Of a stretch of DNA of 64,000 nt, positions 22,365 through 38,709 are shown one piece after another; the first letter of the stretch is position 1; each line of letters starts with the position of its first letter. Source of the DNA: Hyalangium ruber. GTDB lineage: Bacteria > Myxococcota > Myxococcia > Myxococcales > Myxococcaceae. The position numbers were made by a program, and so were the translations under genes. The notes beneath the pieces are model-generated. The model was not told the origin of the DNA and made no database searches. It saw nothing but the letters and a program-made list of their open reading frames with translations. Location: NCBI RefSeq assembly GCF_034259325.1, contig NZ_JAXIVS010000015.1:166515-230514 (forward strand), given 5' to 3'.

Positions 22365-23798
22365 TCAGGCTCGCTGGCGCAACACCGTGCGCTCCACCTT
22401 GCCCATTGCGTTGCGTGGCAGCGCGTCGATGGGAAGGAAGCGCGCGGGGACCTTGAAGCCCGCCAGGGAGCGCCGGCACCAGCCGTCGAGATCCTCCGGG
22501 AGCGCCTGCCCGGAGCGGAGCACCACGAAGGCCACCGGCACCTCGCCCCAGCGCGCGTCCGCGACGCCCACCACTGCCACTTCCTGCACCGCGGGGTGCG
22601 CGGCGATCACGGTTTCGATCTCCGCCGGGTAGAGGTTCTCTCCTCCCCGGACGATGAGGTCCGTGCGCCGGGAGAGCACCGTCAGGCGCCCGCGCTCGTC
22701 CAGCATCCCCATGTCTCGCGTGCGCAGCCAGCCGTCCCGCAGCGCCTCGCGCGTGGCGTCCGGGCGGTTCAGGTAGCCCGCCATCACCGTGGGGCCTCGG
22801 ACCTCGATGTCCCCTTCCCTCCCCGGCCCGAGCACCTCGCCCTCGGGGGAGACGATGCGCACCTCCAGCCCGGGCAGCGCGGGTCCCGCCGTGCGTCCGT
22901 CCGCCTCGGTGGGGCGCTCGGTCGTCACCTGCGAGCACGCCTCCGTCAATCCATAGGTTTGCAGCGCTAGCAGCCTCGCCGCCCGAGCCCGTGCCAGCAG
23001 CGGCGCGGGCACCGGTCCTCCGCCGATCAGCGCGAGCCGGAAGGTCTCGGGCATCGGACGATCGCCGCGCGTGTCGAGCACCCGCTCCAGCGTGGTGGCC
23101 ACGAAGCTGGCGTGGCTCACGCCCTCGGCATCGATGGCCTGGTTCACCGACTCCGGCTCGAACCGGTCGTGCAAGACGAGGCAGCCGCCGTCGTAGGCCG
23201 TGCGGGTCATCATCGCCAGCCCGCCCACGTGGAAGAGCGGGAGCGTGCCCAGCCAACGCGGCGCCGGATGAGCTCCCAGGTTCGCCGCCGAGCACCGCGC
23301 CGATGCTCGGAAATTGCCCTCCGTGATCACCGCTCCCTTGGGCCGACCGGTGGTGCCGGAGGTGAAGAGCACCACGCGCGGGGTGGCCTCCTCCAGGGAC
23401 TCACAGGTCGAAGAGGGAGCCTCCACGGCATCGGCCCAGGTCTCCAGGGGCTCGGCATTCGGGAGGCGATCCACCAGCGCCTTCAGGGCGAGTGTCAGCC
23501 GTGGGGAGATGTCCTCGACGAGCGGCGCCAGCTCCGCCGAGGTCAGCCGGGCATTGAGCGGAGCGTGTACTGCCCCCAGGCGTCCCAGCGCGAAGAAGAG
23601 GAACACGGAGCTGGCGTGGCTGGTCGCCAGCGATGCGACCCGATCTCCCACGCGAATGCCCCGCGACTGGAGCGCACCCACCCAGCGCCCCACTTCCGCG
23701 TCCAGCGCGCGGTAGGTCCAGCGGCGTCCGGCGAAGGTCAGGGCCTCCTGCTCCGGCCAGAGTGAGGCACCCTCTCGGATGGGACACGTGAAGTTCAT
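22365..23798 (-). CDS. menE: o-Succinylbenzoate-CoA ligase
   Basis: A 477-residue adenylate-forming ligase that activates o-succinylbenzoate for ring closure to DHNA-CoA. AMP-binding motifs are VVLFTSGTTGRPKGAV, LQTYGLTEACSQVT, GEVLGPGREGDIEVRGPTV and YLNRPDATREALRDGWLRTRD, followed by LSRRTDLIVRGGENLYPAEIE and the C-terminal catalytic Lys region LPRNAMGKVERTVL. The start at 23798 (MNFTCPIREGASLWPEQEAL) overlaps the menC stop by 4 bp (ATGA). It is the last gene of the menH-menA-menC-menE run. Confidence 0.95.
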   Translation of the reverse strand: MNFTCPIREGASLWPEQEALTFAGRRWTYRALDAEVGRWVGALQSRGIRVGDRVASLATSHASSVFLFFALGRLGAVHAPLNARLTSAELAPLVEDISPRLTLALKALVDRLPNAEPLETWADAVEAPSSTCESLEEATPRVVLFTSGTTGRPKGAVITEGNFRASARCSAANLGAHPAPRWLGTLPLFHVGGLAMMTRTAYDGGCLVLHDRFEPESVNQAIDAEGVSHASFVATTLERVLDTRGDRPMPETFRLALIGGGPVPAPLLARARAARLLALQTYGLTEACSQVTTERPTEADGRTAGPALPGLEVRIVSPEGEVLGPGREGDIEVRGPTVMAGYLNRPDATREALRDGWLRTRDMGMLDERGRLTVLSRRTDLIVRGGENLYPAEIETVIAAHPAVQEVAVVGVADARWGEVPVAFVVLRSGQALPEDLDGWCRRSLAGFKVPARFLPIDALPRNAMGKVERTVLRQRA

Positions 23799-24889
23799 GT
23801 GGAAAGTCCGAGCCCTGGTGTCTCCGGGAGACGGATGCAGCCCTGGACCGGGCGAAAGGGGTGCTCCGGAGGCTCCTCGCGCACGAAGAGCCTGCCGACG
23901 CCCAGCCCCGAAGCCAGACGCCCCGAGGGCAACGCCGCCGCCAGATGTGACGCACCCGCGCGCGAGACGACACCATCGAGCGAGCTCGTCACGAAGGACT
24001 CCAAGCCCAGTTGGGCGGCTTGCTGGGCGAACCTCAGCGCGGGCAGCAGCCCTCCCAGGACCATCGGCTTGAGGACGAAGACGCGCGCGGCGGGCACCCC
24101 GCTGGCGGTCTTCAGGAGCAGGGGGAAGAGCTCTGGCGACGCGATCGCCTCGTCCGCTGCCAGTGGGAACGGCGCCTGCTGCTGCAGCCGCCCCAGGCCT
24201 TGCAGCTCGTTCGCCGGAATGGGCTGTTCGCACAGCTCCGGGCGGTATGCGCTCAACCGGTCCAAGGCCTGGGCCGCCTCCCCTTCCGACCATCCTCCGT
24301 TGGCATCGAGGCGGAGATTCACCTGGGAACCCACCGCTTCCCGGACCGCGCGAACACGCGCCTCGTCCTCTGCCAGCCGACGGCCCGCGACCTTGAGCTT
24401 CAGGGTCTGAAAGCCCTCCGCCACCGCCTGCCGAGCCTCCTCCGCGAGCGCCTCCGGCTTCTCCGCCGTGAGCAGCGCGTTGACCCGAACCTCGGAGCGC
24501 GCGTTCGGCTCGAGGAGCTGGCTCAGCGGCACCTTCCGCCGCTGGGCGAGCAGATCCAGCAGCGCCAGCTCCACCGCGTGAGCCGCGGCGGGAGCCCAAG
24601 AGCTGCCCGTACCTGGCTCGGTGAACACCTCCGGGATGGCCTCGAGGCGGTCGGCGATCAGCTGTTCACCCAACCGCGCCAGGTGGCCACGCAGGACACG
24701 CTCGCACGTGTCGAGCGACTCCGTGCCGAACTCCGGCAGGGGCATCGCCTCGCCCTGGCCCACGCGCCCCTCTTCATCCACCAGCCGGACGAGGAAGCCC
24801 TCCCGAGCCGCGTACGTCGCCCGCGCCGTCTTCAGCGGGCGGACGAACTCCAGCCGCGAGGGGGCCAGCCGCGTCTCGATAATACGCAT
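23795..24889 (-). CDS. menC: o-Succinylbenzoate synthase
   Basis: A 364-residue enolase-superfamily enzyme that dehydrates SHCHC to o-succinylbenzoate. Visible are the capping N-terminus, the catalytic Lys in LKLKVAGR, the metal ligands in NLRLDANGGWS, LCEQPIPANEL and AADEAIASPE, and the second-side Lys in VFVLKPMVLGG. It lies 7 bp after menA and overlaps menE by 4 bp. Confidence 0.95.
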   Translation of the reverse strand: MRIIETRLAPSRLEFVRPLKTARATYAAREGFLVRLVDEEGRVGQGEAMPLPEFGTESLDTCERVLRGHLARLGEQLIADRLEAIPEVFTEPGTGSSWAPAAAHAVELALLDLLAQRRKVPLSQLLEPNARSEVRVNALLTAEKPEALAEEARQAVAEGFQTLKLKVAGRRLAEDEARVRAVREAVGSQVNLRLDANGGWSEGEAAQALDRLSAYRPELCEQPIPANELQGLGRLQQQAPFPLAADEAIASPELFPLLLKTASGVPAARVFVLKPMVLGGLLPALRFAQQAAQLGLESFVTSSLDGVVSRAGASHLAAALPSGRLASGLGVGRLFVREEPPEHPFRPVQGCIRLPETPGLGLST

Positions 24890-24896
24890 GCGGCCC

Positions 24897-25817
24897 TCAC
24901 CTCAGGCTCAACCCCACGGCGAAGAGCAGGCCAAAAACGAGCTGGAGCCGCGCCGTACCACCCAGCGCCGCGTTCAGCGCCGCCCCCTGCGCCCCCAGCA
25001 CGAGCCGCAGCGGCCCCAACGCCAACGGAGCGCTCAGCAGCGCCAGGAACACCCACGGGCCCGCCAGGCCGAGCCCGAACATCGCGAACGGCGTGGCGTA
25101 CGCGGCCAGGAGCATCAGGATGTACTCCGCCTTGCCCGCCCGGGTGCCTAACCGCACGATCAGGGTGCGCTTGCCGGCCTTCGCGTCCGTATGCACGTCG
25201 CGCAGGTTGTTGACGACCAACAGCGCCGTGCCCAACGCGCCTACCGGCACCGCGGCCCACCACGCTCCCGGGCTCACCGTGAGCGACTGGACGTAATAGG
25301 TCCCCGTCACCGCCACGAGCCCGAAGAAGACGAACACGAACGCATCCCCGAGGCCGTTGTAGGCCAGCGGGAACGGCCCGCCCGTATAGGCGTAGCCGCA
25401 CAGCACCGAGGTGAGGCCAATCGCCACGATGGGCCACCCACCCACCGACACCAGGTAGATGCCCGAGAGAATGGCCAAGGCGAAGCACGCCAGCGCCCCC
25501 GCCAGCACCGAGCCCGGGGCGATGAGACCACTCTGGGTGACGCGCACCGGCCCTAGACGCTCGGACGTGTCCGCGCCCTTCTTGAAGTCGTAATAATCGT
25601 TGGTGAGATTGGTGCCGATCTGGATGAGCAGCGCGCCCACGAGCGCGGCGACCGCCGGCAGCCAGCGCCCCACCCCATTGCCAAACGCCAGGCCCGTGCC
25701 GACTCCCACCGGCACGAGGGCGGCGGTGAGCGTCTTCGGACGAGCAGCCATGAACCACGTCTTGAGCGTGGCACGGGGGCGGGCCTGAGGCTCCAGAGAC
25801 AAAGCAGGAGAATTCAT
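24897..25817 (-). CDS. menA: DHNA polyprenyltransferase MenA
   Basis: A 306-residue UbiA-family integral membrane protein with about eight or nine hydrophobic spans. It attaches the isoprenoid tail to 1,4-dihydroxy-2-naphthoate with loss of CO2. The Asp-rich allyl-diphosphate site reads NLTNDYYDFKKGADT and the second Asp region VVNNLRDVHTDAKAGKRTL. The start at 25817 (MNSPALSLEPQARPRATL) is taken because the upstream open frame overlaps menH and is not membrane-like. It lies 23 bp after menH. Confidence 0.95.
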   Translation of the reverse strand: MNSPALSLEPQARPRATLKTWFMAARPKTLTAALVPVGVGTGLAFGNGVGRWLPAVAALVGALLIQIGTNLTNDYYDFKKGADTSERLGPVRVTQSGLIAPGSVLAGALACFALAILSGIYLVSVGGWPIVAIGLTSVLCGYAYTGGPFPLAYNGLGDAFVFVFFGLVAVTGTYYVQSLTVSPGAWWAAVPVGALGTALLVVNNLRDVHTDAKAGKRTLIVRLGTRAGKAEYILMLLAAYATPFAMFGLGLAGPWVFLALLSAPLALGPLRLVLGAQGAALNAALGGTARLQLVFGLLFAVGLSLR

Positions 25818-25840: not shown

Positions 25841-26686
25841 TCAGGAAGGACTCTCGGGCGAGGCGCTCTCGAATTCGGGCGACTCGTACCAAGGCGTATC
25901 GAGGAAGGCGAGCACCTCGCGCGCGAACGCCTCCGGAACCTCCAGGTGCGGAGCGTGCCCGCAGTTCTCGAAGGTGTGGCGCCAGACGACGGGCAGCTCG
26001 GTCGCCATGCGCCGCGCCAGCTGCGTGAACTTCTCGTCCTGCGCTCCGGTGAGCAGCAGCGTCGGCAGGCGCTGGCGGTGCAGCTCGGACCAGTAATCCG
26101 GCTGCACCCCGAGCCCCAGGCACCCCAGCGCGCCCACCAGCCCCTCGACGGTGCAGGACGAACGGCGCTGCCGCAGGGCGGCCTGCTGCTCGGGCGGCAG
26201 GCGCCTCAAGCCGTCGAACAGGGGCATCGCCTCCCAGCGATCGATGAAGGCTTCCACGCCGTTGAGCTGGATGAAGGAGGCGCGCCGGCCGTCCTCCTCG
26301 CGCCGCTCCGCGCGCTCCATGCGCCGGTGCAGGCCTGGCGAGCCGCTCTCCAGGATGAGCCGGCCAAAGTGCCTCGGGGAGTGCAGCGCCGCGCCCAGCG
26401 CGATCCGCGCTCCCTGCGAGTAGCCCATCAGATCCACGGAGTGCAGCCCCAGCCGCTCCACCAGCTCCACCACCGCCTGCACCGTCTCGATGAAGCCCTC
26501 TCGGCCCTTGCGCTCGGGCAGCGGCGTCTCTCCGTGCCCCGGCAGATCCACCGCGATGGCCTTTACCGCGCCGCCCAGCATCGGGCGCAGGTGATCAAAG
26601 GAACTGCGGTTGCCAGTGAAGCCATGCAGGAGCACGAGCGGCCGAGTCCCCTGCCCCCACATGCTGTATGCCAGTGTCACACCCAT
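25841..26686 (-). CDS. menH: MenH-like alpha/beta hydrolase (SHCHC synthase)
   Basis: A 281-residue alpha/beta hydrolase. The nucleophile Ser is in MGYSQGARIAL (about residue 90), the oxyanion region is LLHGFTGNRSSFDHL, the acid is near LLTGAQDEKF, and the catalytic His is in FENCGHAPHLEVPEAF. Its place ahead of menA-menC-menE supports a role in eliminating pyruvate from SEPHCHC to make SHCHC. The fold alone does not prove the substrate. It is the first gene of its run, and a palindrome shared with the menF/aroF region lies 48 bp upstream of the ATG. Confidence 0.88.
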   Translation of the reverse strand: MGVTLAYSMWGQGTRPLVLLHGFTGNRSSFDHLRPMLGGAVKAIAVDLPGHGETPLPERKGREGFIETVQAVVELVERLGLHSVDLMGYSQGARIALGAALHSPRHFGRLILESGSPGLHRRMERAERREEDGRRASFIQLNGVEAFIDRWEAMPLFDGLRRLPPEQQAALRQRRSSCTVEGLVGALGCLGLGVQPDYWSELHRQRLPTLLLTGAQDEKFTQLARRMATELPVVWRHTFENCGHAPHLEVPEAFAREVLAFLDTPWYESPEFESASPESPS

Positions 26687-26733: not shown

Positions 26734-26755
26734 GAGTTCAAAACCTCGTGAACTC
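26734..26755. promoter_or_regulatory. Perfect inverted repeat upstream of menH (copy 1 of 2)
   Basis: GAGTTCA (26734-26740), an 8-bp centre AAACCTCG, and TGAACTC (26749-26755). The outer G and C extend the arms to 8 bp. The same element occurs at 31898-31919 with a single centre change. It starts 48 bp upstream of the menH ATG. It is likely an operator; the cognate regulator is unknown. Confidence 0.65.
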
Positions 26756-26845: not shown

Positions 26846-27934
26846 TCAGCGCCTGCCGGCGGCCCGGCGCACAGGTCTCTGGGGCGCGGTCCGCGCCGCG
26901 GCCTTCTTCTGCTTCTTCTTCCTGCCGCGGCTCAGGAGCTGGAGCATGTTGCCGCCGTAGATGCTCTGCCGCTCGGCCTTGGTGAGCTTCAGCGCCGCGA
27001 CCGTCCGATCGGTCTCCGGGGTGAAGATCTCTCCGGAGCGCGAGTCCATCGGCGAGTCGCTGCCGAAGAGCACCCGCTCCACGCCGAAGAAGTCGCAGGC
27101 GAGCTGGATGGTCGCCGGCTCGAAGCCGAGCGAGGCCGTGTCGCAGTAGAACTTCTTGAAGTGGTCGATGTACGGCTGCTCGATCGGGGTCTGCAGATCG
27201 ATGCCGCTGCACTCCTCGAAGGACTCGTAGCAGGCCTGCATCCGCTTCGCGAAGGTGGGGATGAGCGCGCCGTGGTGGTGGGTGATGAGCTTCAGGTCGG
27301 GGTAGCGCTGGAACACCCCGCTGAACACCAACCTCGCCATCGCCACGCTGCTGTCGGTGACCCAGCCCAGCGTCTGCCAGATGAGGTACTTGGAGAACTT
27401 CTCCTCCGGGTAGTCCGCGTGCGAGCCGGGCCGGCACGGATGCAGCCAGAGGGGAACGTCGAGCTGCTCGGCCTTCTGATAGAGCGGCTCGTAGTCGGGG
27501 TGATCCGGCGGCTTGACCGTCGGCCCGAAGAAGAGGACTCCGCCCGCCAGGCCCAGCTCCTCCACGGAGCGCTCCAGCTCGGAGACCATCTGCTGGGGGC
27601 CCGCCGCCGACGGCAGCAGCGCCACCCCGTGGAAGCGTCCCGGGTGCGCCAGGGTCACCATGCGGAGCCCGTCGTTGCACAGCCGCGCGGCCTTCACCGA
27701 CAGGGCGGGATCGTCATAGACGCCCCGGATCCCCTCGATCCACGGCAACGGCACCACGACGTTCGAGTCGATGCCGTACTTGTCCATCTGCCGCAGGCGC
27801 TGATCCGTGTCGACCAGCGTGGGCGTGTTGGCGAAGAGCTTGCGGAAGACGTGCGGGCTGCCGCTGAGCCCCTCCAGGAAGTCCAGGAACCCCGGGGGGC
27901 TCAGGTGCGTATAGGCGTCGATCTTCTGGGTCAT
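26846..27934 (-). CDS. ACMSD-type amidohydrolase family 2 protein in the men cluster
   Basis: A 362-residue TIM-barrel protein of the Amidohydrolase-2 group (ACMSD and aromatic-acid decarboxylases). Metal-site positions can be read as YTH (residues 8-10, where HxH is usual, so the first His looks replaced by Tyr), His in PLWLHPCRPG, His in LKLITHHHGALIP and Asp in VLFGSDSPMD. A Lys/Arg-rich tail of about 25 residues follows. The start at 27934 overlaps the methyltransferase stop by 4 bp. Its place inside a menaquinone operon suggests it acts on an aromatic or quinone intermediate, but no standard Men step needs it. Function is inference only. Confidence 0.85.
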   Translation of the reverse strand: MTQKIDAYTHLSPPGFLDFLEGLSGSPHVFRKLFANTPTLVDTDQRLRQMDKYGIDSNVVVPLPWIEGIRGVYDDPALSVKAARLCNDGLRMVTLAHPGRFHGVALLPSAAGPQQMVSELERSVEELGLAGGVLFFGPTVKPPDHPDYEPLYQKAEQLDVPLWLHPCRPGSHADYPEEKFSKYLIWQTLGWVTDSSVAMARLVFSGVFQRYPDLKLITHHHGALIPTFAKRMQACYESFEECSGIDLQTPIEQPYIDHFKKFYCDTASLGFEPATIQLACDFFGVERVLFGSDSPMDSRSGEIFTPETDRTVAALKLTKAERQSIYGGNMLQLLSRGRKKKQKKAAARTAPQRPVRRAAGRR

Positions 27935-28722
27935 CGCGAGCGGCTCCCGGGGTTGCTGGAGGGGTGGTGCTTGGCGATGAGCCGCGCCGCCGCGCCGCCG
28001 CTGTAGCGCTCGCTGTGGACCAGCTCGGCGCCACACCGGGACATCAGCTCCGAGAACTCGGAGATGCTCAGCTGGTTGATGATGCTCTCGGCAAGGTAGC
28101 GGTAGGGGGTGTTGTCCTTGACGAAGGGGCTGACGACATGGGGCATCACCTTCCGCATCCACGTCGTGTACACGGCGCGCCACACCTCCGAGTCCCGAGG
28201 GTAGAAGTGGTCGAGGATGATCAGCCGCCCGCCCGGCGCCAGCACCCGCAGCATCTCCCGCATGGCGGCTTCCTGGTCCGGGAAGTTGCGGTACGTGAAC
28301 GCCGTGAGCACCACGTCGTAGGCACCGGTGAGCCGCGGAATCGCGCACACGTCACCTTCGAAGTACGCGCCCTGGGGATCGTGCTTCCGCGCGACGCTCA
28401 GCATACCGGGAGACAGATCCATGCCCTCGACGCGAACACCCGTGTACTGGCGGCTCAGGAAGCGGGTCGACTCGCCGGTGCCGCACCCCACGTCCAGCAC
28501 CCGATCTCCGGGGCGCAGGGCCAGATCGCGCAGCGCCCGCCGGTACCAGAGGCTGGTATGACCGGCGAACACCAACAGCCGCAGGAAGTCATAGCGCGGG
28601 GAGATGGTGTCGAAGAGCGAGCGCACATACTCCCGCTTCGAGTCTCCTCGAAGCTGCGCCGCCTGATCAGGTGTCGCGCCCTGCTCCTCTTCGCCTCCGA
28701 GATTCTTGGCCCGTCCCTGCAT
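27931..28722 (-). CDS. UbiE/MenG-like methyltransferase, divergent copy
   Basis: A 263-residue SAM-dependent class I methyltransferase. Motif I is VLDVGCGTGESTRFL, motif II MDLSPGMLSVA, and the UbiE-like segments are FDTISPRYDFLRLL, AFTYRNFPDQEAAMREMLRVLAPGGRLIILD and FVKDNTPYRYLAESI. The DTISPRYD start and the length fit demethylmenaquinone methyltransferases, but several positions are unlike the canonical UbiE, which is also present (32839-33528). It sits between menD and the amidohydrolase and overlaps the latter by 4 bp. It could do a later or different quinone methylation. Confidence 0.85.
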   Translation of the reverse strand: MQGRAKNLGGEEEQGATPDQAAQLRGDSKREYVRSLFDTISPRYDFLRLLVFAGHTSLWYRRALRDLALRPGDRVLDVGCGTGESTRFLSRQYTGVRVEGMDLSPGMLSVARKHDPQGAYFEGDVCAIPRLTGAYDVVLTAFTYRNFPDQEAAMREMLRVLAPGGRLIILDHFYPRDSEVWRAVYTTWMRKVMPHVVSPFVKDNTPYRYLAESIINQLSISEFSELMSRCGAELVHSERYSGGAAARLIAKHHPSSNPGSRSR

Positions 28723-28755: not shown

Positions 28756-30513
28756 TTACGCCCAGGGGCCTGCGCCCAGGGCCTGGGTCATCCGCGCGAA
28801 CAGCTCGCGGTGAAGCTCCACGTTGTCCGTCCGCTCCGTGCGCACCTCGATGAGGTGCAGCCCCCCTTCCAAGCCCGCCTGGACCGCCGTGCGCAACGCG
28901 GCCGGAGTTTCCGGCCGGTGGAAGCGCGCTCCGTAGAGCGTCGCCACGTGCGAGAGATCGACACCGTGGGGCGTGCCGAAGAGCTGCTCGAAGTGTTCCG
29001 TGGCCTTCGCGATGGGCAGGAACGAGAAGATGCCGCCCCCATCGTTGTTCACCACCACGACGGTGAGCGGGACCCGGTGCCGGTGCGCGGTGAGCAGCCC
29101 GCCCACGTCGTGCAGGAGGGCCAGATCGCCGGTGAGCAGCACCGTGGGCCGCCCCGAAGCCGCGGACACCCCGAGCGCGCTGGAGATGATGCCGTCGATG
29201 CCGTTGGCGCCCCGGTTGGCGAGCACCCGCAGCGCCACGCCATTCGAGGGTGCGAAGGCGTCCACGTCCCGGATGGGCATGCTGCTGGAGACGAAGAGGT
29301 TCGCCCCGGACGGCAGCGCGGCCACCACCTCGCGGGCGATGCGCGGCTCGTTCAGCCCGGCCTGCTCGGCGAACGCGGCCTCCAGGGCGTTTCGGGCCAG
29401 GCGCTCGGCCTGGAGGAAGCCCTGTGCCCAGCGTCCCAGCCCGCGAGACATCCCGAGCCCCAGCGCCTCGCAGGCAGCCACGGCGGAGCCCTCGATGACC
29501 TGCGCCGAACGGTGAGCGGGGTCGAAGAGCGAGCCGTCGTCACTGAACAGGACGATGTGGGCCCCCGAGGCGTCGAGCCACTGCTGCGGGCCCTTGGGCG
29601 TCAGCCCGCCTCCGAAGCGCAGCACCAGCTCCGGCCGATGGGCCTGGGCGAAGGGCGGGTGGCGCAGCAGCGCGTCGTACAGGGAGAGCGTCGCGGCGCC
29701 TCCTCCATAACGCGCCTGGGAGACGGCCTCCGCGATGACGGGGTAGCCAGTAGCCTGGGAGAGCGCGGCGATGGCCTCCGCGAAGCCATCGTCCTCGTCC
29801 CGGGGCCCACAGACGATGAGCCCTCGCTCGGTGGCGGAGATCCGACGGCGCACCTCATCGATGGCCTGGGCATCCGGCTGACGCGCCGCCGGGGTGATGC
29901 GCGTCATCGGCGCCCCGGAGCGCCCCTCGCGGGCGAGCTCGGACAGGCGCTCGGCGCCGAAGGGCTCCGGCGTGGGCGCCAGCGGCTCGCGGAAGGGAAC
30001 GTTGAGCTGCACCGCGCCCCGAGGAGCGCGCAGGGACGTGCTCACGGCCCGAGAGACAGTGGCGCGCAGGTGGGCCACCGCCACGTCGCTCGACTCGGGC
30101 TGCCCCAGGTCCGCGAAGAAGCGGGCGTGCTCCCCGAACATGCGCGCCTGCGGCACGGTCTGCGGCGCGCCCCACCCTTGCAGCTCCAGCGGCCGGTCCG
30201 CCGTGAGCACGATGAGGGGCACATTCGACTGCGCCGCTTCGATGACGGCCGGGTAGAAGTGCGCCCCGGCCGTGCCGCTCGTGGCCACCAGCACCGCTGG
30301 CGCGCGCGAGTGCTTGGCCACGCCCAGCGCGAAGAAGCCGGCGCTGCGCTCATCGATGACGGACCAGATCTTCAGCCCCTCGACGCGAAGACAGGCCAGC
30401 GCCAGAGGCGAGGAGCGCGAGCCTGGGCACACCACCGCGTGACGGACGCCGCCGCGCACCAGCTCCTCCAGTAAGGCTCGCGCCCAGAGCTGGTTAAGAT
30501 TCGCGTCGGACAT
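28756..30513 (-). CDS. menD: SEPHCHC synthase MenD
   Basis: About 585 residues, a ThDP enzyme that adds 2-oxoglutarate-derived succinic semialdehyde to isochorismate. N-terminal RHAVVCPGSRSSPLALACLR with the family Glu region IDERSAGFFALG, STSGTAGAHFYPAVIEA, and the ThDP/Mg motif in LTGDLALLHDVGGLL through VVVNNDGGGIFSFLP are clear. The start is ATG 30513, or GTG 30516 directly before it, overlapping menF by about 20 bp, so the two are coupled. Confidence 0.97.
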   Translation of the reverse strand: MSDANLNQLWARALLEELVRGGVRHAVVCPGSRSSPLALACLRVEGLKIWSVIDERSAGFFALGVAKHSRAPAVLVATSGTAGAHFYPAVIEAAQSNVPLIVLTADRPLELQGWGAPQTVPQARMFGEHARFFADLGQPESSDVAVAHLRATVSRAVSTSLRAPRGAVQLNVPFREPLAPTPEPFGAERLSELAREGRSGAPMTRITPAARQPDAQAIDEVRRRISATERGLIVCGPRDEDDGFAEAIAALSQATGYPVIAEAVSQARYGGGAATLSLYDALLRHPPFAQAHRPELVLRFGGGLTPKGPQQWLDASGAHIVLFSDDGSLFDPAHRSAQVIEGSAVAACEALGLGMSRGLGRWAQGFLQAERLARNALEAAFAEQAGLNEPRIAREVVAALPSGANLFVSSSMPIRDVDAFAPSNGVALRVLANRGANGIDGIISSALGVSAASGRPTVLLTGDLALLHDVGGLLTAHRHRVPLTVVVVNNDGGGIFSFLPIAKATEHFEQLFGTPHGVDLSHVATLYGARFHRPETPAALRTAVQAGLEGGLHLIEVRTERTDNVELHRELFARMTQALGAGPWA

Positions 30514-31810
30514 CACTGCCTCCCAAGGCGCGCAACATCGCCAGGCTCTTCATCTCCGTCTCCCGCCACTCCGCCTCCGCACTGGAGCCCTGGACGATGC
30601 CAGCCCCCACGAAGAGCCGGGCGTGCGCGCCCGTCACCAGCGCCGAGCGCAGCGCCACCGCCATGTGCGCCCCGCTCGGGCCGATCCACCCCACCGGCCC
30701 CGCGTACCAGCCGCGATCCAGCGCCTCGTGCTCATGCAGGAAGCCCAGCGCGTGCTCCCTCGGCACACCGCCCACCGCCGGCGTGGGGTGCAGCGCCGCC
30801 ACCACCTGCGCCGGGCTCACGCCCTCGCGCAGCTCGGCGCGGATGCCGGTGCGCAGATGCACCACGTTCTTCAGCGTGAGCAGCGAGGGCTCGGCGTCCG
30901 CCGTCACGTGCTCGGCGACGGGCCGCAACGCCGAGAGGATGTACCGCACCACGGACTGGTGCTCCCGGCTCTCCTTGTCGCTCCCGCCCAGCCCCTCGGC
31001 CTGCCCGGGCGCCGCGGAGCCCGCCAGCGCCTCCGTCTCCAACGTGCGCCCCTCGACGCGGCACAGCGTCTCCGGCGTGGCCCCCAGGAACGCCGTCTCG
31101 CTCTTGGCGCGAAACAGAAACGTGACACAGCGCGGGTTCTGCTCGCGCAGCCGGGCCAGCACCTCCACCAGATCGAAGGGGGCCGACCCTACCGCCTCCA
31201 CCGCGCGCGCCATCACCACCTTCTGGATGCAGCCGGCGTTGATGGCCTCCAGCGCCCGGCTCACCCGGGCCTCGAAATCCTGGCGCGACGAGGAGAGCTG
31301 CAACCCGACCACCCCACCCTTCGGGTGGTAGTAGCTGTCCGGGAAGCTCGCGCGCACCCGCTCCAGCCGCGAGCGGACGAGATCCTCGCCCCCCGCATCC
31401 TCCAAAGCGAACGCCGCCACCTTCACCCCCGTCCCCACCCGCCAGGCGAGCACCTCGGGCATCGTCCACCGCGCGAAGCCGTGCGCCTCCCAGCGCGCGT
31501 CCGACGGCGCCGAGGCGGCGAAGCGCATGCCCCCGAACCAGGGACCGGGCATCCCTTTCGGCACGCCCTCCATCCAGCGAATCTCGGCCCGCGAGGCGAG
31601 CGTCGAGAGCACCTCATTCACCTCGGCCGCGCTCCGAGCCTCCCGGACCGCCGCCTCACCCCAACCCGCTACCGCCTGCCCCACCGTGGGGCGCTCCCAA
31701 TAGACGGAGGGCACGCCCAACACGCTTGCTCCCGAGAGCGGATCGACGCCATTCAAGGTCGTCGTCCCAGCCACCCAACGCTGTGCTTTCTCAGGATTGA
31801 GCATCGGCAT
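30494..31810 (-). CDS. menF: Isochorismate synthase
   Basis: A 438-residue member of the anthranilate/isochorismate synthase family. The C-terminal chorismate-binding domain shows IQKVVMARAVEA (catalytic Lys), FLGATPETLCRVEG, ETEALAGSAAPG, KESREHQSVVRYI, VVHLRTGIRAEL, LHPTPAVGGVP and FVGAGIVQGSSAEAEWRETEMKS. The ATG at 31810 has GAGAGG five bases upstream. It commits chorismate to menaquinone, although the same reaction can feed catechol siderophores; the menD overlap argues for menaquinone. Confidence 0.96.
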   Translation of the reverse strand: MPMLNPEKAQRWVAGTTTLNGVDPLSGASVLGVPSVYWERPTVGQAVAGWGEAAVREARSAAEVNEVLSTLASRAEIRWMEGVPKGMPGPWFGGMRFAASAPSDARWEAHGFARWTMPEVLAWRVGTGVKVAAFALEDAGGEDLVRSRLERVRASFPDSYYHPKGGVVGLQLSSSRQDFEARVSRALEAINAGCIQKVVMARAVEAVGSAPFDLVEVLARLREQNPRCVTFLFRAKSETAFLGATPETLCRVEGRTLETEALAGSAAPGQAEGLGGSDKESREHQSVVRYILSALRPVAEHVTADAEPSLLTLKNVVHLRTGIRAELREGVSPAQVVAALHPTPAVGGVPREHALGFLHEHEALDRGWYAGPVGWIGPSGAHMAVALRSALVTGAHARLFVGAGIVQGSSAEAEWRETEMKSLAMLRALGGSDVRRES

Positions 31811-31870
31811 TTGAGCCTCTCTAGAGCCAACGGGTCATGTTCCTTCGTGTACGGCTCACGCTTGTTTTAA

Positions 31871-31886
31871 TCGTGATTCTCGTTAT
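31871..31886 (-). promoter_or_regulatory. Fur-box-like A/T-rich element upstream of menF
   Basis: Minus-strand ATAACGAGAATCACGA at 31886-31871, which with the following TT matches about 13 of 18 positions of the Escherichia coli-type Fur box (ATAATGATAATCATTATC). The core TAACGAGAATC recurs at 28758-28748, just ahead of the UbiE-like gene. It lies about 60 bp upstream of the menF ATG. Iron control is a guess from similarity only. Confidence 0.3.
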
Positions 31887-31897
31887 ACAAGATTAAG

Positions 31898-31919
31898 GAG
31901 TTCAAAACCACGTGAACTC
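31898..31919. promoter_or_regulatory. Perfect inverted repeat in the menF/aroF divergent region (copy 2 of 2)
   Basis: GAGTTCA (31898-31904), centre AAACCACG, TGAACTC (31913-31919). It is identical in both arms and 7 of 8 centre bases to the element upstream of menH. It ends 17 bp before the aroF GTG and lies about 88 bp upstream of menF, so one bound factor could affect both directions. Confidence 0.65.
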
Positions 31920-31936: not shown

Positions 31937-32842
31937 GTGGGAGCGAGGCGTACTGAAGAAGCCACGCGAGAGAGCACTGCCCCGCAACCAGAGCCGAGCC
32001 GAGCCCTGAAGAACTCGAACCCTGAGTGCCGACGCATTCCGGTGGGACGACTCGAAGTAGGAGGGCCCGGCTTCGTGGTCATGGCCGGACCGTGCGCGGT
32101 GGAGAACGCGGAGCAGACCTCCGTGACCGCCGAGGCCGTGGCGGCCGCGGGAGCGCATGTGTTGCGCGGAGGCGTGTTCAAACCTCGCACCAGTCCTCGC
32201 TCCTTTCAAGGGTTGGGAGAGCCTGGCCTCCACATGCTGGCCGAGGCGGGGCGGCGTCACGGAATGCCTCTCATTAGCGAGGTGATGGACGCCTCGCAGA
32301 TTCCACTCATGGTGGAGTACGCGGACATCCTCCAGGTGGGCGCGCGGAACATGCAGAACTACACGCTGCTGCGCGCGCTGGGCAAGGTGCAGCGGCCGGT
32401 GCTGCTCAAGCGCGGGCTGGCGGCCACCATCGAGGAGTGGATGCTGGCGGCCGAGTACATCCTGGATGGCGGCAACACCCACGTGATGCTGTGCGAGCGT
32501 GGCATCCGCACCTTCGAGACGGCCATGCGAAACACGCTGGATCTGTCCGCGGTGGCCTACGTGAAGGAGCGCTCGCCGCTGCCGGTCATCGTGGATCCTT
32601 CTCACGCGACGGGAAGCCCCTCGCTGGTGCTGCCCATGGCGATGGCGGCGGCGGTGGCGGGCGCTGACGGGCTGCTGGTGGAGGTCCACCCGTGGCCGGA
32701 GCAGGCGCTGTGCGACGGGAAGCAGGCGCTCACGCCCGAGCAGTTCCAGTATTTGATGCAGCGGCTGCCGGCTGTGTTACATGCCGTGGACCGGCACCTC
32801 TGGAAGCCGGAGAGTCCGATCCAGCTGGCGGGAGCACGATGA
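31937..32842 (+). CDS. aroF: 3-deoxy-7-phosphoheptulonate (DAHP) synthase, type I-beta-like
   Basis: About 301 residues, condensing PEP and erythrose-4-phosphate in the first shikimate step. The barrel motifs are [93 protein letters not shown] and [20 protein letters not shown]. No ACT, ferredoxin-like or chorismate-mutase domain is attached, so classic feedback domains are absent. The start is GTG 31937, five bases after GGGAGG; a later GTG at 32042 would remove a non-conserved 35-residue leader. It heads the aro operon and overlaps ubiE by 4 bp. Confidence 0.93.
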
Positions 32843-33528
32843 GCACCGAAGTCCGACAGATGTTCTCCTCGATCGCCACGCGCTACGACGTGACGAACGA
32901 GGTGCTTTCGTTTGGCATCCACCGCCTGTGGCGCCGCACCACGGTGCGCCTGAGCGGAGCCAAGCAGGGAGACAGCATCCTCGACTGCGCGACGGGAACG
33001 GGAGACCTGGCGCTGGTCTGGAAGCGCACGGTGGGCGCCTCTGGCCGCGTGGTGGGCACCGACTTCTGCCCGGAGATGCTGCAGAGCGCTCCCGCGAAGG
33101 CCGAGCAGGCGGGGCTCCAGGTGGAGTTCCAGGTGGCCGATGCGATGGCCCTGCCCTTCGCGGACAACTCCTTCGACGTGGCGTCGATCTCCTTCGGCAT
33201 CCGCAACGTGGATGATCCGGTGAAGTGCCTGAAGGAGATGGCGCGCGTGGTGAAGCCGGGCGGGCGCGTGGTGGTGCTCGAGTTCGGCCAGCCCGAGGGC
33301 CTGTTCGGCGCGCTCTTCCGCTTCTACAGCAAGACGATCATGCCAGCGATCGGCGGGCTGCTTACGGGCAACAGGGCGGCATATGAGTACCTGCCTCGCA
33401 CCGCGGCGGCGTTCCCCGCGGGCGAGCGCTTCCTGGCGCTCATGGACCAAGCCGATGCCTATCGCGAAAGGGTGGCCCATCCGCTGACGTTTGGGACATC
33501 CTACGTCTATGTCGGAACGGTCCGCTGA
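32839..33528 (+). CDS. ubiE: Demethylmenaquinone methyltransferase UbiE/MenG
   Basis: A 229-residue canonical UbiE/COQ5 enzyme that performs the final C-methylation of menaquinone. Motifs are [88 protein letters not shown] and the C-terminal [13 protein letters not shown] (usual end SxGxxxxxxG). ATG 32839 overlaps the aroF stop (ATGA). A menaquinone gene inside a shikimate operon links both pathways. Confidence 0.95.
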
Positions 33529-34108
33529 CGCACGGCGACAGACTCTCGAACAGATTCTCGATGCTGTAGACCCCCGGCTGTCCCCGGGGCTGAGAGCCCA
33601 GCTTGCCCGGCCAGGGCCGACGGCGCTGCCGGATGCGGGGCAGACAGTGGTGATCGCCGGGCACCGCTCGGCTGGCAAGACGCGGCTCCTGCCGCTGGTG
33701 GCACGGCTCCTCGGCCGTGCCGGGCTGGACCTGGATGCGGAGCTGGAGCGCGCCACGGGGCGCTCGTTGCGCTCCTGGGTAGCCGAGGAGCCCAGCACCT
33801 TCCGCGCCGCCGAGCGCCGGGCGCTCCTGGAGCTACCCCCTGGAAGTCTGGTCGCCGTGGGAGGGGGCTTCCTCTCCCATCACCCTGAGGCACTGGCGGG
33901 ACGGTTCACCCTGGTCGTGCCGATCTCTTTCGAGACGTACCGCGAGCGCCTGCTGGCCGATACCACGCGGCCCCGGCTCCGTCCGGGCGTGTCACTGGAA
34001 GAAGAGCTCTCCACCGTGTTTCACGAGCGTGAAGTGTTGCACGCCCGTGTCCCGAGCGTGCCGCTGGTGGATTTCCTCCGGGCCTTCCGAAGCGAGGTGA
34101 TGCCATGA
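33509..34108 (+). CDS. aroK: Shikimate kinase
   Basis: About 199 residues. A P-loop (IAGHRSAGKTRLLPLVA) lies about 50 residues in, with the shikimate-binding DLDAELERATGRS, the FRAAERRALLEL region and the GGG site (VAVGGGFLSHHPEAL), then ADTTRPRLRPG (the usual lid RPLL). A 45-residue N-terminal extension without clear homology precedes the kinase core. ATG 33509 lies inside the end of ubiE (20-bp overlap). It phosphorylates shikimate for AroA. Confidence 0.9.
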   Translation: MSERSADARRQTLEQILDAVDPRLSPGLRAQLARPGPTALPDAGQTVVIAGHRSAGKTRLLPLVARLLGRAGLDLDAELERATGRSLRSWVAEEPSTFRAAERRALLELPPGSLVAVGGGFLSHHPEALAGRFTLVVPISFETYRERLLADTTRPRLRPGVSLEEELSTVFHEREVLHARVPSVPLVDFLRAFRSEVMP

Positions 34109-35367
34109 CGCCGCTGCTACGTGTCGTCACCCTGCCGCCCACCCTGCTGGGCTCCGAGGCGATCCGCTTCGCGGAGGAGGTCCGCCGCCGGGGTGCGAAC
34201 GTGCTCGAGGTGCGAACCGATCTGCACGCGCCGGAGGCCGTGGACGGCCAGGCCCTGGCGCGGGTGCTGCCGCTGCTCATCTCCGAGCGGGGAAAGCCCC
34301 TGCCCTCCTCCTGGATGGAGGCCGCCACCTATGTGGACCGGGATGTGACGGTCTCGGTGGAGGTCCCCTCGTCGAAGTGGCGGCTGGTGGCCTCGCACCA
34401 TGCCGCGCGCCCGCTCTCTTCGGACGAGGCCCTGTGCCTCTGGGAGCAGACGCTGCCCGCGAATGCCTGGGTGAAGCATGTCGAGCCCCTGGGCCCTTCC
34501 TCGCGCGTGGAGGAGTTGCTGGAGACGCAGTCCCGGCTCATTGCCCGCTTCGGTGCCGGTCGGGTAACGGTGCTGGGAATGGGGCCCGCAGCGCTTCCGG
34601 CCCGCGTGGTGCTCGCCCGACGCAACGCGCTCGACTACGTCGCCGCGGGAGGCAGTTGGAGCGCGGCGCCGGGACAACGGCTGCTGGATGACGCCGTCCG
34701 CGAGCTGCGCGCGGTGGAGCGGGGAACCGCGCGTGGGGGTGCTTCGCGGCTCGGCATCCTGGGCACGAGCATCGTCCACTCCCGCTCGCCGCGCATCCAC
34801 CGCCAGCCCTTCGATCGCATCGACATCCCCGAGGATGGGCCCGTCGAGGAGCTCGTCGATTCGCTGCTGCCCCACTACGCCGGCTTCGCCGTCACCAGCC
34901 CCTTCAAGCTGCGGCTGGCCCGCCATACCCGCGCGCCCCTGGAGGCCATCAACACCCTGGTGCGCCGGGGCAACCGCTGGGAGTCCTTCAACACCGACGT
35001 CGCGGGAGCGCGTGCCGTGCTGGAGCGGCTCGGGGCCCGCGAGGTGTTCGTCCTCGGTGACGGCGGCTCGACCGCCGCGCTCCGCGCCATCGCCCCGGAG
35101 GCCGGCGTCCAGTTGCGCGTCCTCAAGCGCTCGGAAGTCCACGAGCCCCTGCGCGGCGCGGGCCTCTGGACCTGGCCGGATCGGATAGCCCCACCCGAGG
35201 GCCTGCGGTTTGATGGGGCGCGCGTGGCGGTGATCGCCTACGGTGCCCCGGGTCGGCGTGTCGCCCAGGAGATTGCGCGACGCGGCGGCACTCCAGTCAT
35301 GCTGGGTTCGGCGTGGTTCATCGCACAAGCTCGGCGGCAGCGTGAACTCTGGGAGAGCGCGACATGA
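34105..35367 (+). CDS. aroE: AroD-AroE fusion: 3-dehydroquinate dehydratase / shikimate dehydrogenase
   Basis: A 420-residue bifunctional protein. Residues about 1-205 are a compact type I dehydroquinase: LEVRTDL (about 34-40), catalytic His in LVASHHA (98/99), Schiff-base Lys in WVKHVE (124) and the lid APGQ (188-191). Residues about 214-420 are shikimate dehydrogenase: LGILGTSIVHSRSPRIH with the shikimate-binding SRS, catalytic Lys in FAVTSPFK (268), AINTL (Asn 283), FNTDVAGA (Asp 298) and the NADP fold VFVLGDGGSTAAL. The fused order is known in plants and a few bacteria. Overlaps aroK by 4 bp and aroC by 4 bp. Confidence 0.92.
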   Translation: MTPLLRVVTLPPTLLGSEAIRFAEEVRRRGANVLEVRTDLHAPEAVDGQALARVLPLLISERGKPLPSSWMEAATYVDRDVTVSVEVPSSKWRLVASHHAARPLSSDEALCLWEQTLPANAWVKHVEPLGPSSRVEELLETQSRLIARFGAGRVTVLGMGPAALPARVVLARRNALDYVAAGGSWSAAPGQRLLDDAVRELRAVERGTARGGASRLGILGTSIVHSRSPRIHRQPFDRIDIPEDGPVEELVDSLLPHYAGFAVTSPFKLRLARHTRAPLEAINTLVRRGNRWESFNTDVAGARAVLERLGAREVFVLGDGGSTAALRAIAPEAGVQLRVLKRSEVHEPLRGAGLWTWPDRIAPPEGLRFDGARVAVIAYGAPGRRVAQEIARRGGTPVMLGSAWFIAQARRQRELWESAT

Positions 35368-36383
35368 ACACCCTTGGCGTCCTGTTCCGTCTGACCACCT
35401 TCGGCGAGAGCCACGGCCCCGCGCTGGGCTCGATCATCGACGGGTGCCCCTCTGGCGTCCCCCTCACGCGCGAGCACATCCAGGCCGCGCTGGATCGGCG
35501 ACGCCCCGGCCAATCGGCCATCGTCACCGCCCGCTCCGAGCCGGACCAGGTGGAGATCCTCTCCGGCGTCTTCGAGGACAAGACGCTGGGCACGCCCATC
35601 GCGGCCATCGTGCGCAACACGAACCAGCGCTCGGGCGACTACGACAAGCTGAAAACGGAGGACCGGCCCGGCCACGCGGACGCGGTCTGGCGCGAGCGCT
35701 ACAAGCACCGTGACCACCGGGGCGGCGGGCGCACCAGCGGCCGCGAGACGCTCTGCCGAGTGATTGGCGGCGCGGTGGCGGAGGCCTACCTCGCCCGGGA
35801 TCTGCCCCAGGTGCGCACGGTGGGCTGGGTCTCCCAGGTGGGAAACCTCGTCGCGGCGGTGCCCCCTCCGGGTCTCACGCGCGCGCAGGTGGACGCACAC
35901 CCCACGCGCTGCGCGGATCCGGTGCTGCGCGAGGAGATCTCCCAGCGCATCCTCGCGGCCAAGGAGGCCGGAGACAGCCTGGGGGGCTCCATCGACATCC
36001 GCGTCGAGGGCCTGCCGGTGGGGCTCGGTGAGCCCATCTTCGGCAAGCTCAAGGCGCTGATCGCCCAGGCGCTGGGCAGCGTCGGCGCCGTGACGGGCGT
36101 GGTCTGGGGCCCGCCGGATCTGCTCTCGCGAATCGAGCAGCCCGGCAGCGTCTTCCACACCCAGAAGGAGATGTACGGCGGCATCCAGGGCGGCCTGGCC
36201 AACGGCGAGCCGATGCAGGTGCGCGCCTTCTTCAAGCCGCCCGCCACGCTCGCCGACCACGCGAAGGGCGGACGCCACGATCCGTGCATCATGCCTCGCG
36301 CGGTGCCCGTCCTGGAGGCGATGGTGTCGATGGTCATCGCCGATCTCGTCCTGCAGATGAACGCCCGACCGCACTCCCTATGA
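35364..36383 (+). CDS. aroC: Chorismate synthase
   Basis: A 339-residue FMN-dependent enzyme that makes chorismate from EPSP. It shows LTTFGESHGPALGSIIDGCPSG, RRRPGQSAIVTARSEPDQVEILSGVFE, GHADAVWRERYKHRDHRGGGRTSGRET and the C-terminal DPCIMPRAVPVLEAMV. It is slightly short for the family but all signatures are present. ATG 35364 overlaps aroDE. Its product is the branch point for the divergent menF. Confidence 0.97.
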   Translation: MNTLGVLFRLTTFGESHGPALGSIIDGCPSGVPLTREHIQAALDRRRPGQSAIVTARSEPDQVEILSGVFEDKTLGTPIAAIVRNTNQRSGDYDKLKTEDRPGHADAVWRERYKHRDHRGGGRTSGRETLCRVIGGAVAEAYLARDLPQVRTVGWVSQVGNLVAAVPPPGLTRAQVDAHPTRCADPVLREEISQRILAAKEAGDSLGGSIDIRVEGLPVGLGEPIFGKLKALIAQALGSVGAVTGVVWGPPDLLSRIEQPGSVFHTQKEMYGGIQGGLANGEPMQVRAFFKPPATLADHAKGGRHDPCIMPRAVPVLEAMVSMVIADLVLQMNARPHSL

Positions 36384-37450
36384 GCCCTACTCCCCCTGGC
36401 GCCTATCGCCCCGCAGCAGATCACTGGGGCACTTTCACCAAGCTCTCGAAGCGGCTGCCCGAGGGCAGCGTGGCCGTCGTCGACCGGACGGTGGCGCGCT
36501 TGCATCCCGGCCTCATCCCCGCCCTGGAGGCGCGCAACCCCCGCGCCATCCTCCAGCTCGTCGGCGGTGAGCGGGCCAAGAACTTCGAGACGCTGCAGAA
36601 GGTGCTCGCAGGCGGCCTCACCCTGCCCCGCTCCGGCACGCTGGTGGCCGTGGGCGGAGGCACCATCGGAGATGTGGCCACCGTGGCCGCGCACCTGCTC
36701 AAGCGCGGCGTGCGGCTGGTGCAGGTGCCCACCACCCTGCTGGCGGCGGTGGACAGCAGCCTCGGCGGCAAGGGCGCGGTGGACATGTCCGTGCGCGGCG
36801 CCGTGGTGAAGAACCCCGTGGGCGTCTTCCACTATGCCGACGAGACGTGGATCTGCCCGGAGCTGTACACCTCGCTCTCCGAGGTCCAGCTCCGCGAGGG
36901 CGCCATCGAGGCCTGGAAGATGGCCGTCTGCCTGGACGGAGACCTCTTCCGCCGCTACTCGCGCAAGCCGCCGCCCCTGCAGCGGCTGGTGAAAGACGCG
37001 CGGCGGCTCAAGGAGAACGTCTGCGCGCAGGACCCCTACGAGCAGACGGGTCTGCGGCGGGTGCTCAACTTCGGCCACACCTTCGGCCATGTGCTGGAGG
37101 GCCTGTCCCGCTTCAAGCTGTCCCACGGGGACGCGGTGGGCCTGGGCATGCTCTGCGCGCTGGACGTGGGGCGGCTGCTCGGAGTGACGCCGCAGGACGT
37201 GGCGATCCAGGTGGAGGAGGCGCTGAACCGCGGGCTTGGCATCCTCGGCCGGGATCGCATCGCGGCCCTGTGCAAGCGCGCCGCCCTCAAGGACGTGACG
37301 ACCCTGCTCGCCGCCGACAAGAAGGCGGGCAAGGCGGGCGAGCTGCGCATGGTGCTGCTCTCCGCCATTGGCGCCTTCGACATCAAGGACGTCACCGAGA
37401 ACGATTGGCGCACCCTCTGGCCCGCCTGGACACGGGGAATCCTCCCATGA
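36380..37450 (+). CDS. aroB: 3-dehydroquinate synthase
   Basis: A 356-residue NAD- and Zn-dependent enzyme converting DAHP to 3-dehydroquinate. Landmarks are VAVGGGTIGDVATVAAHLLKRGV, VQVPTTLLAAVDSSLGGKGAVDM, KNPVGVFH, LREGAIEAWKMAV and the Zn-binding LNFGHTFGHVLEGL with SHGDAVGLGM. ATG 36380 overlaps the aroC stop by 4 bp (ATGA). Confidence 0.97.
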   Translation: MSPTPPGAYRPAADHWGTFTKLSKRLPEGSVAVVDRTVARLHPGLIPALEARNPRAILQLVGGERAKNFETLQKVLAGGLTLPRSGTLVAVGGGTIGDVATVAAHLLKRGVRLVQVPTTLLAAVDSSLGGKGAVDMSVRGAVVKNPVGVFHYADETWICPELYTSLSEVQLREGAIEAWKMAVCLDGDLFRRYSRKPPPLQRLVKDARRLKENVCAQDPYEQTGLRRVLNFGHTFGHVLEGLSRFKLSHGDAVGLGMLCALDVGRLLGVTPQDVAIQVEEALNRGLGILGRDRIAALCKRAALKDVTTLLAADKKAGKAGELRMVLLSAIGAFDIKDVTENDWRTLWPAWTRGILP

Positions 37451-38709
37451 GTCAGTTGCACGTCGACCCCAGCCACCTCGCCGCCGCGCGCCTCACTCCT
37501 CCGCTGTCCAAGTCGGACGCGCAGCGGGCGCTGGTGCTCGCGCACCTCACGGGTCACTGGCCCCTGGCCACGCTCCAGGCCGAGCCCGAGTCGGACCGGG
37601 CCGCGGACGTCCGCGTCCTCACGCGGGGCGTGGAAGCCCTGCGCCTGCCTCCGGGCCCGGTGCGGGACGTGGACTGCGCGGATGGCGGCGCCCCGTTCCG
37701 CATCCTCGTCACCCAGGCGGCGGTCACCCCCGGCGCCCGCGTACGGCTCACCGGTACCCCTCGCCTGGGCGAGCGCCCACACGGCCCGCTCTTCGACTCG
37801 CTCCGAGAAACTCTGGGGCCCTCGGGGCTCGTCCTCACCGAGGGCAAGCCCTGGCCCGTGGAGATTCACGCGCCCACCACCGCCGGCGCGCCCGTCTTCC
37901 GGGTGCCGGGCGCGCAGAGCAGCCAGTACGCCTCCAGCCTGCTGCTGGGCTGCGCGGCGCTCTACCTGCGCGAGAAGCGCCCCTGGAGCGTCGAAATCCA
38001 AGGCCCGCTGACGAGCGCCGGCTACCTGGAGCTCACCGTCACCTGGCTGCGGCGCTTCGGCTTCACCGTGGAGGAGACCGCCTCCCGCTTCTCGGTCACC
38101 GGCTACCAGCCCTCCCCGAGTGCCCCACCCATCCCCGGAGACTGGTCCTCCCTGGGCTACCTGCTGCTCATCGCCTGGCGCACGGGCGGCAGCGTCGAGC
38201 GCGCGGACCCGTCCAGCGCCCACCCGGACCAGGCGCTCCTGCGGCTCATCCAGCCCGCGGGCCTCACCCCGGTTCCCGGGCCGGACCTCACCATGCGCGT
38301 CGAGGGCCAGGCCCGCGACGGGCTCGTGGCCTCCGGCAAGGAGTGCCCGGACCTGCTCCCCACCCTCGCGGCGCTCGCCTGCGTCCTGCCGCGCCCCTCC
38401 ACCCTCACGGACGTCGGCATCCTCCGCTTGAAGGAGAGCGACCGGCTGGAGGGCATCCGCAAGTTCGTGTCGGCTTATGGAGGAACCACCACCCTGGAGG
38501 GCGAGACGCTCACGGTGACGCCCCCCAAGGCCCCTCCCGCGCACTTCGCCATGGACAGCCACGGAGACCACCGGCTCGCCATGGTTTCGGCCACCCTCGC
38601 CGTGCTGTCGGGCGCCCGGTTGACGCTCACCGGCCCCGAGTGCGTGGAGAAGAGCTTCCCGGGCTTCTGGCGGCAGTTAGAAAAAGCGGGTGTACGCCTC
38701 TCGGAATGA
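37447..38709 (+). CDS. aroA: EPSP synthase with an altered GNAGTA motif
   Basis: A 420-residue 3-phosphoshikimate 1-carboxyvinyltransferase. PEP and shikimate-3-phosphate contacts are present: LSKSDAQRAL (Lys 22, Arg 27), ERPHGPL, AQSSQYASSLL, KECPDLLPTLAALA, LRLKESDRLEGI and MDSHGDHRLAM. The usual NAGTAMRP loop reads DGGAPFRI (79-86): the Gly and Arg are kept but neighbours differ, in the loop that sets PEP versus glyphosate selectivity. ATG 37447 overlaps aroB by 4 bp. Last gene of the aro operon. Confidence 0.95.
   Translation: MSQLHVDPSHLAAARLTPPLSKSDAQRALVLAHLTGHWPLATLQAEPESDRAADVRVLTRGVEALRLPPGPVRDVDCADGGAPFRILVTQAAVTPGARVRLTGTPRLGERPHGPLFDSLRETLGPSGLVLTEGKPWPVEIHAPTTAGAPVFRVPGAQSSQYASSLLLGCAALYLREKRPWSVEIQGPLTSAGYLELTVTWLRRFGFTVEETASRFSVTGYQPSPSAPPIPGDWSSLGYLLLIAWRTGGSVERADPSSAHPDQALLRLIQPAGLTPVPGPDLTMRVEGQARDGLVASGKECPDLLPTLAALACVLPRPSTLTDVGILRLKESDRLEGIRKFVSAYGGTTTLEGETLTVTPPKAPPAHFAMDSHGDHRLAMVSATLAVLSGARLTLTGPECVEKSFPGFWRQLEKAGVRLSE

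Follow-up and report, generated by a model that had tools for sequence, protein, structure and literature searches.

An inverted repeat at the aro/men locus of Hyalangium ruber as the probable operator of a small menaquinone regulon, with a MarR/GbsR-like protein as its candidate repressor

The palindrome GAGTTCA-N8-TGAACTC, which is found both upstream of menH and between the divergently transcribed menF and aroF genes of Hyalangium ruber, is, with high probability, the operator of a small menaquinone regulon at which a repressor encoded behind ispB ("MenR", a label coined for this analysis only) would act, the menH copy being most likely linked to a cassette that splits the men operon. That the palindrome is a real, conserved operator of an aro/men/ispB regulon is what the comparison of genomes argues for; site conservation, the identity of the target genes, gene linkage and the way in which operator and recognition helix change in parallel are its direct results, from which we infer binding, repression and ligand release.

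The palindrome in the window, the genome and the family

The window (the whole 64-kb stretch of DNA that was analysed) holds the following features of the aro/men locus:

22368..25799, minus strand: menA, menC and menE, which follow menH (the order menH-A-C-E is conserved)
25841..26686, minus strand: menH (SHCHC synthase; TIGR03695, 257 bits, above cut-off), the first gene behind copy 1
26734..26755, minus strand: putative operator copy 1, 48 bp ahead of the menH start and private to this genome
26846..27934, minus strand: amidohydrolase-like gene, cassette gene 2 (named from reading the sequence; no strong NCBIfam match)
27931..28722, minus strand: UbiE/MenG-like methyltransferase, cassette gene 1 (TIGR01934, 145 bits, below the cut-off of 158)
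28756..30516, minus strand: menD
30494..31810, minus strand: menF (isochorismate synthase; TIGR00543, 290 bits, above cut-off)
31862..31889, plus strand: putative aroF promoter, TTGTTT (31862-31867), 16 bp, TATACA (31884-31889), proposed from the sequence
31867..31896, no strand assigned: second inverted repeat, TTAATC-N18-GATTAA, read by eye, between menF and the operator
31898..31919, no strand assigned: putative operator copy 2, within the promoter region between the divergent menF and aroF, present across the family
31937..32842, plus strand: aroF (DAHP synthase; TIGR01361, 359 bits, above cut-off), which heads the aro operon
32692..38709, plus strand: remaining aro operon (ubiE/menG-type methyltransferase, aroK, aroDE, aroC, aroB and aroA)

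Both copies, GAGTTCAAAACCTCGTGAACTC at 26734-26755 and GAGTTCAAAACCACGTGAACTC at 31898-31919, match GAGTTCA-N8-TGAACTC, and the coordinates, the identical arms and the one-base difference between the 8-bp centres given in a preliminary description of this DNA were all verified, as was its remark that the window contains no third copy, which holds even at 3 mismatches. Genome-wide pattern matching with mismatches allowed (10.77 Mb, 43 contigs) returned these two as the only exact matches, while 100 dinucleotide-preserving shuffles contained none and a reversed control pattern had no match in the whole 10.77 Mb genome. Most of the matches added at 2 mismatches look like background, and one has the same asymmetric centre: a third site, TAGTTCAAGACCACGTGAACTG (G000:C15:73237), located outside the window, ~120 kb from the window copies and 21 bp upstream of the polyprenyl-diphosphate synthase gene ispB, with the near-identical core AGTTCAAGACCACGTGAACT. 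The core motif thus has three matches in the Hyalangium ruber genome (menH, menF|aroF and ispB). Enzymes of the polyprenyl-diphosphate synthase type make the isoprenoid tail, which MenA attaches to the ring.

The first comparison covered 40 relatives (24 of the same family and 16 from other families of the order), among which AGTTCAARACCNCGTGAACT at up to 2 mismatches was present in 20 of the 24 same-family genomes, with one to three sites each, and in none of the 16 others; the reversed control gave a single match in all 40. Every one of the 30 loci inspected from those 20 genomes was menF|aroF, menD|aroK, menH or ispB, which makes the gene-class enrichment that the preliminary description had proposed checking (in this genome and its relatives) essentially complete. 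With AGTTCAARACNNCKTGAACT at up to 1 mismatch, the site was found in 88 of 96 family genomes, the control giving no matches, and one extra family match (G053) lay away from the men genes. A scan of GTDB contigs placed the site in Myxococcus (including M. xanthus, in which both the men|aro and the ispB sites are present), Corallococcus, Archangium, Citreicoccus and Pyxidicoccus, with 78 of 119 loci at men/aro/ispB; the remainder, among the titles listed, belonged to unrelated organisms, a repeat of an Elusimicrobia MAG and one unassigned Myxococcales MAG. In one genome, G075 (L227), ~5 kb separate menD from menF and so divide the aro/men cluster, with a recognisable operator upstream of menD and none found at the relocated menF|aroF.

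Two side observations concern the database records themselves. The match in the Elusimicrobia MAG (JACPOW contigs; L051, L055, L065, L068, L101 and others) stands ~115-135 bp from many contig ends, and these matches suggest a repeat element unrelated to the aro/men/ispB regulon. The BNCN01 records (L061, L085), titled Comamonas sp. KCTC 72670, contain Myxococcus-like men and ispB loci, and the title is probably a mislabelling.

The shared operator for chorismate/menaquinone genes that had been proposed from the window is, therefore, supported: its menF|aroF site occurs family-wide, the sites lie at promoters of aro/men genes or of ispB, and the random genome-wide copies that would have spoken against the proposal were not seen. 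Its expectation that both sites be conserved in sister species was borne out for menF|aroF only, the menH copy being private to the Hyalangium ruber genome. Similarly, the 22-bp perfect repeat is correct for both window copies, whereas across relatives it is the 20-bp core AGTTCA-N8-TGAACT that is generally conserved and the outer G/C pair is not. A fixed asymmetric centre (ARACCNCG) acting as an oriented element was considered and rejected; because the ispB sites carry this centre in both orientations, the site is best read as a palindrome with a variable core. That only two exact copies exist, and that copy 1 is not conserved at the menH of sister genomes, might be taken to indicate a chance or mobile repeat without function; to this we assign a negligible probability, as the result of the shuffles, the family-wide conservation of position and the lack of spread elsewhere in the genome already refute it.

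A candidate regulator encoded behind ispB

The remark that the regulator is not obvious in the window was well founded, since the candidate is encoded beside ispB, and both the ispB site and the regulator gene escaped the first reading because they lie outside the window. MenR is a ~198-residue MarR-type protein whose gene stands directly downstream of ispB (in Hyalangium ruber at C15:71622-72215, L161:8320-8916 on the minus strand, ~95 kb before the window and with a 4-bp overlap with the ispB stop). Nearly every genome of the family encodes it, almost always as a single copy, and loci fetched by the MenR protein alone had the operator upstream of ispB in 30 cases out of 30 (27 exact, 3 with one mismatch). 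A Pfam MarR_2 match above the cut-off (E=2.6e-11) places it among MarR-type winged HTH proteins; the top Foldseek PDB match of its AlphaFold model (pLDDT 83.9) is 1ku9 (Mj223; E=4.7e-8), and phmmer gave 5.8e-10, in agreement with an Mj223-like fold, while as an equivalog of the choline regulator CudC it scored only 35.6 bits against a cut-off of 218. The palindromic site and the long C-terminal helices of the modelled protein would fit dimeric operator binding. The missing regulator is very probably this MarR/GbsR-like (Mj223-fold) protein.

The way in which operator and protein differ between lineages provides an independent test. The ispB promoter of family f7 carries TTTCA-N8-TGAAA in place of the GTTCA-type operator. 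When 13 genomes, ten of them f7, were searched for this variant, eight of the f7 genomes had it at ispB-menR and five at menF|aroF, and the ten contained just one match elsewhere; a sixth f7 case, G120, has a one-base variant before menF. Half-sites of the GTTCA type are accompanied by the MenR recognition helix SKG[GA]VSM, those of the TTTCA type by S[TSA]GAASM. Sites at different targets (f7 ispB and menF|aroF) thus shift together between lineages, and the same new half-site at two separate promoters points to one shared protein. The ispB-menR pair with its operator reaches other Myxococcota families, and the pair together with the GTTCA operator and the SKG[GA]VSM helix was also found in four genomes of the phylum outside the order. 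The parallel may reflect one or a few events in the tree, making it strong rather than statistical evidence, and it would be a clear example from nature of an operator and a recognition helix that change in step.

These data also bear on whether the operator, while real and marking a menaquinone regulon, might be bound by another, unlinked regulator, MenR being merely the co-transcribed neighbour of ispB. The link between MenR and the DNA is a genomic one, and an MrpC-like CRP-family protein recognises GTGTY-N8-RACAC, which has a similar geometry. Nevertheless, the presence of the operator at ispB in all of the MenR-chosen loci, the helix that changes in step with it, a genome (G010) devoid of MenR, MenD and site alike, and the persistence of the ispB-menR-operator linkage in other Myxococcota families make an unlinked binder improbable. 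As specific candidates, a CRP/MrpC-type binder was set aside as a geometric resemblance only, and MerR-type spacer binding at ispB for want of a linked MerR gene.

The partners of MenR vary among genomes, as family f5 and G005 have MenR relatives without a recognised site. In family f5 (L211, L213-L215, L217, L222) the MenR-like protein is encoded away from ispB; MenD was absent in the six f5 genomes searched, and no TTCA-N8-TGAA site was found near the MenR-like gene.

Promoter geometry, the split men operon and a proposed mechanism

In 22 of the 26 distinct men flanks that were aligned, boxes of the aroF type keep a constant spacing to the operator, and with the putative aroF promoter the operator would span roughly +1 to +22 of aroF. 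At the f7 ispB, TTGACA-N16-TTAGAG is directly followed by the operator; at the ispB of family f1 (that of the window), a conserved TATATG follows the operator, and in many genomes the ATG is close by. The start points are predicted ones, since a consensus scan finds no near-consensus sigma-70 promoter at either window site (a strict scan misses the aroF boxes). All three placements suit a repressor, and the geometry favours repression. The second inverted repeat, TTAATC-N18-GATTAA, overlaps the putative aroF promoter and is possibly a site of another regulator; it was not seen in the aligned relatives, only here.

Two other readings have to be weighed against this geometry. MenR might bind and activate, or act in both ways, aiding the polymerase at weak ispB and men promoters, which would accord with the f1 ispB, where the operator fills the spacer before the conserved TATATG -10 and no -35 is recognisable. 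We consider this unlikely, given that the f7 ispB has a good TTGACA box with the operator just after the -10 (a position for repression), that the operator covers the predicted aroF start and that characterised proteins of the GbsR type act as repressors from sites that overlap the promoter or lie downstream of it (PMC7396694). Alternatively, the repeat could be an RNA hairpin in 5' leaders (an attenuator or stability element): its arms can pair, and on the minus strand it is spanned by a terminator-like prediction. This is very improbable, as the palindrome has no Rfam match (the only one in the window is a tRNA), the site stands between divergent promoters as one operator for both strands and, at the f1 ispB, upstream of the predicted start, and in the aligned sites mismatches are frequent at the innermost pair of the arms whereas the outer bases hardly vary, as expected for protein half-sites.

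In the sister genomes inspected, the men operon runs without a break as menF-D-H-A-C-E or menD-H-A-C-E and is headed by a single operator, so that menH, lying inside it, does not need a separate site. Here, a two-gene cassette (26846-28722, minus strand) separates menD from menH, which heads a separate segment with its own operator at the break. The cassette methyltransferase is absent from the men clusters of relatives, and the amidohydrolase-like gene occurs in 2 of the 96 family genomes, the other being G043, where it is damaged, lies beside its methyltransferase partner and has no men gene in the 3.3 kb loci around it. Most likely, the menH operator arose or was kept because the cassette broke up the men operon at the menD-menH junction, resulting in a split operon with the same operator on each part. 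Its origin by duplication of the whole men promoter is only suggestive, because outside the motif the menH and men promoter flanks resemble each other weakly (~2% of random window segments reach such a score), and it may instead have evolved in place.

The mechanism we propose is that MenR, as a dimeric MarR/GbsR-like repressor, would bind AGTTCA-N8-TGAACT at three promoters: that of ispB-menR (its own operon, implying autoregulation), menF|aroF in both directions and, in Hyalangium ruber only, menH. Bound MenR would block RNA polymerase, as the site lies at the aroF start point and between the -35 and -10 of ispB, so that one regulator might set shikimate precursor, naphthoquinone ring and polyprenyl tail together; release could come from a small pathway-related ligand, e.g., a prenyl diphosphate or a quinone, by analogy with CrtR. 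That MenR is an ancient master regulator of the Myxococcota, sensing prenyl diphosphate or quinone and balancing shikimate, ring and tail through one operator, is a tentative and rather doubtful extension.

Significance and comparison with known systems

Dedicated transcriptional control of menaquinone (vitamin K2) synthesis is poorly known, and a search of literature outside the subscription journals found nothing on MenR or its operator, on a myxobacterial men regulator or on a dedicated men repressor. If the wider reading of MenR as a sensor of a pathway product is true, it would be a dedicated feedback repressor of menaquinone biosynthesis, a kind for which no description was found here. 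With a candidate repressor, a defined DNA site and a limited set of target genes, the regulon is testable in Myxococcus xanthus, and it may help to raise the yields of myxoquinones/vitamin K2 derivatives. The aro/men locus itself corresponds to the myxoquinone (mxq) cluster of Cystobacterineae (PMC8955186), with MxqI/J/K/L/M/N being MenF/D/H/A/C/E; that paper proposes enzymes only, and no discussion of a regulator was found in it.

Among characterised regulators, GbsR, OpuAR and OpcR of Bacillus share with MenR the Mj223-type winged-helix fold, 1ku9 having been the GbsR template (PMC6207618, PMC7396694), and are, as proposed for MenR, dimeric repressors encoded beside their targets, with inverted-repeat operators that lie at the promoter or downstream of it. 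GbsR, however, senses choline, controls glycine-betaine genes and has an A/T-rich operator with a 4-bp spacer, whereas the targets of MenR would be quinone and shikimate genes. CrtR of Corynebacterium glutamicum (PMC5401885), to be compared at the MarR level, is likewise a MarR-type autorepressor of an isoprenoid-pathway operon whose site overlaps the promoter and whose DNA binding is relieved by isoprenoid pyrophosphates; it differs in controlling carotenoid genes through a TTAA-containing site and in being divergent rather than co-transcribed. MhqR of Staphylococcus aureus (PMC12893000) is also a MarR-type repressor linked to quinones, but it represses the mhqRED operon (a quinone response) rather than quinone biosynthesis. 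Viewed alongside these, MenR would be a local repressor of the MarR/GbsR-like kind, whose small regulon is unusual in joining shikimate, ring and tail genes.
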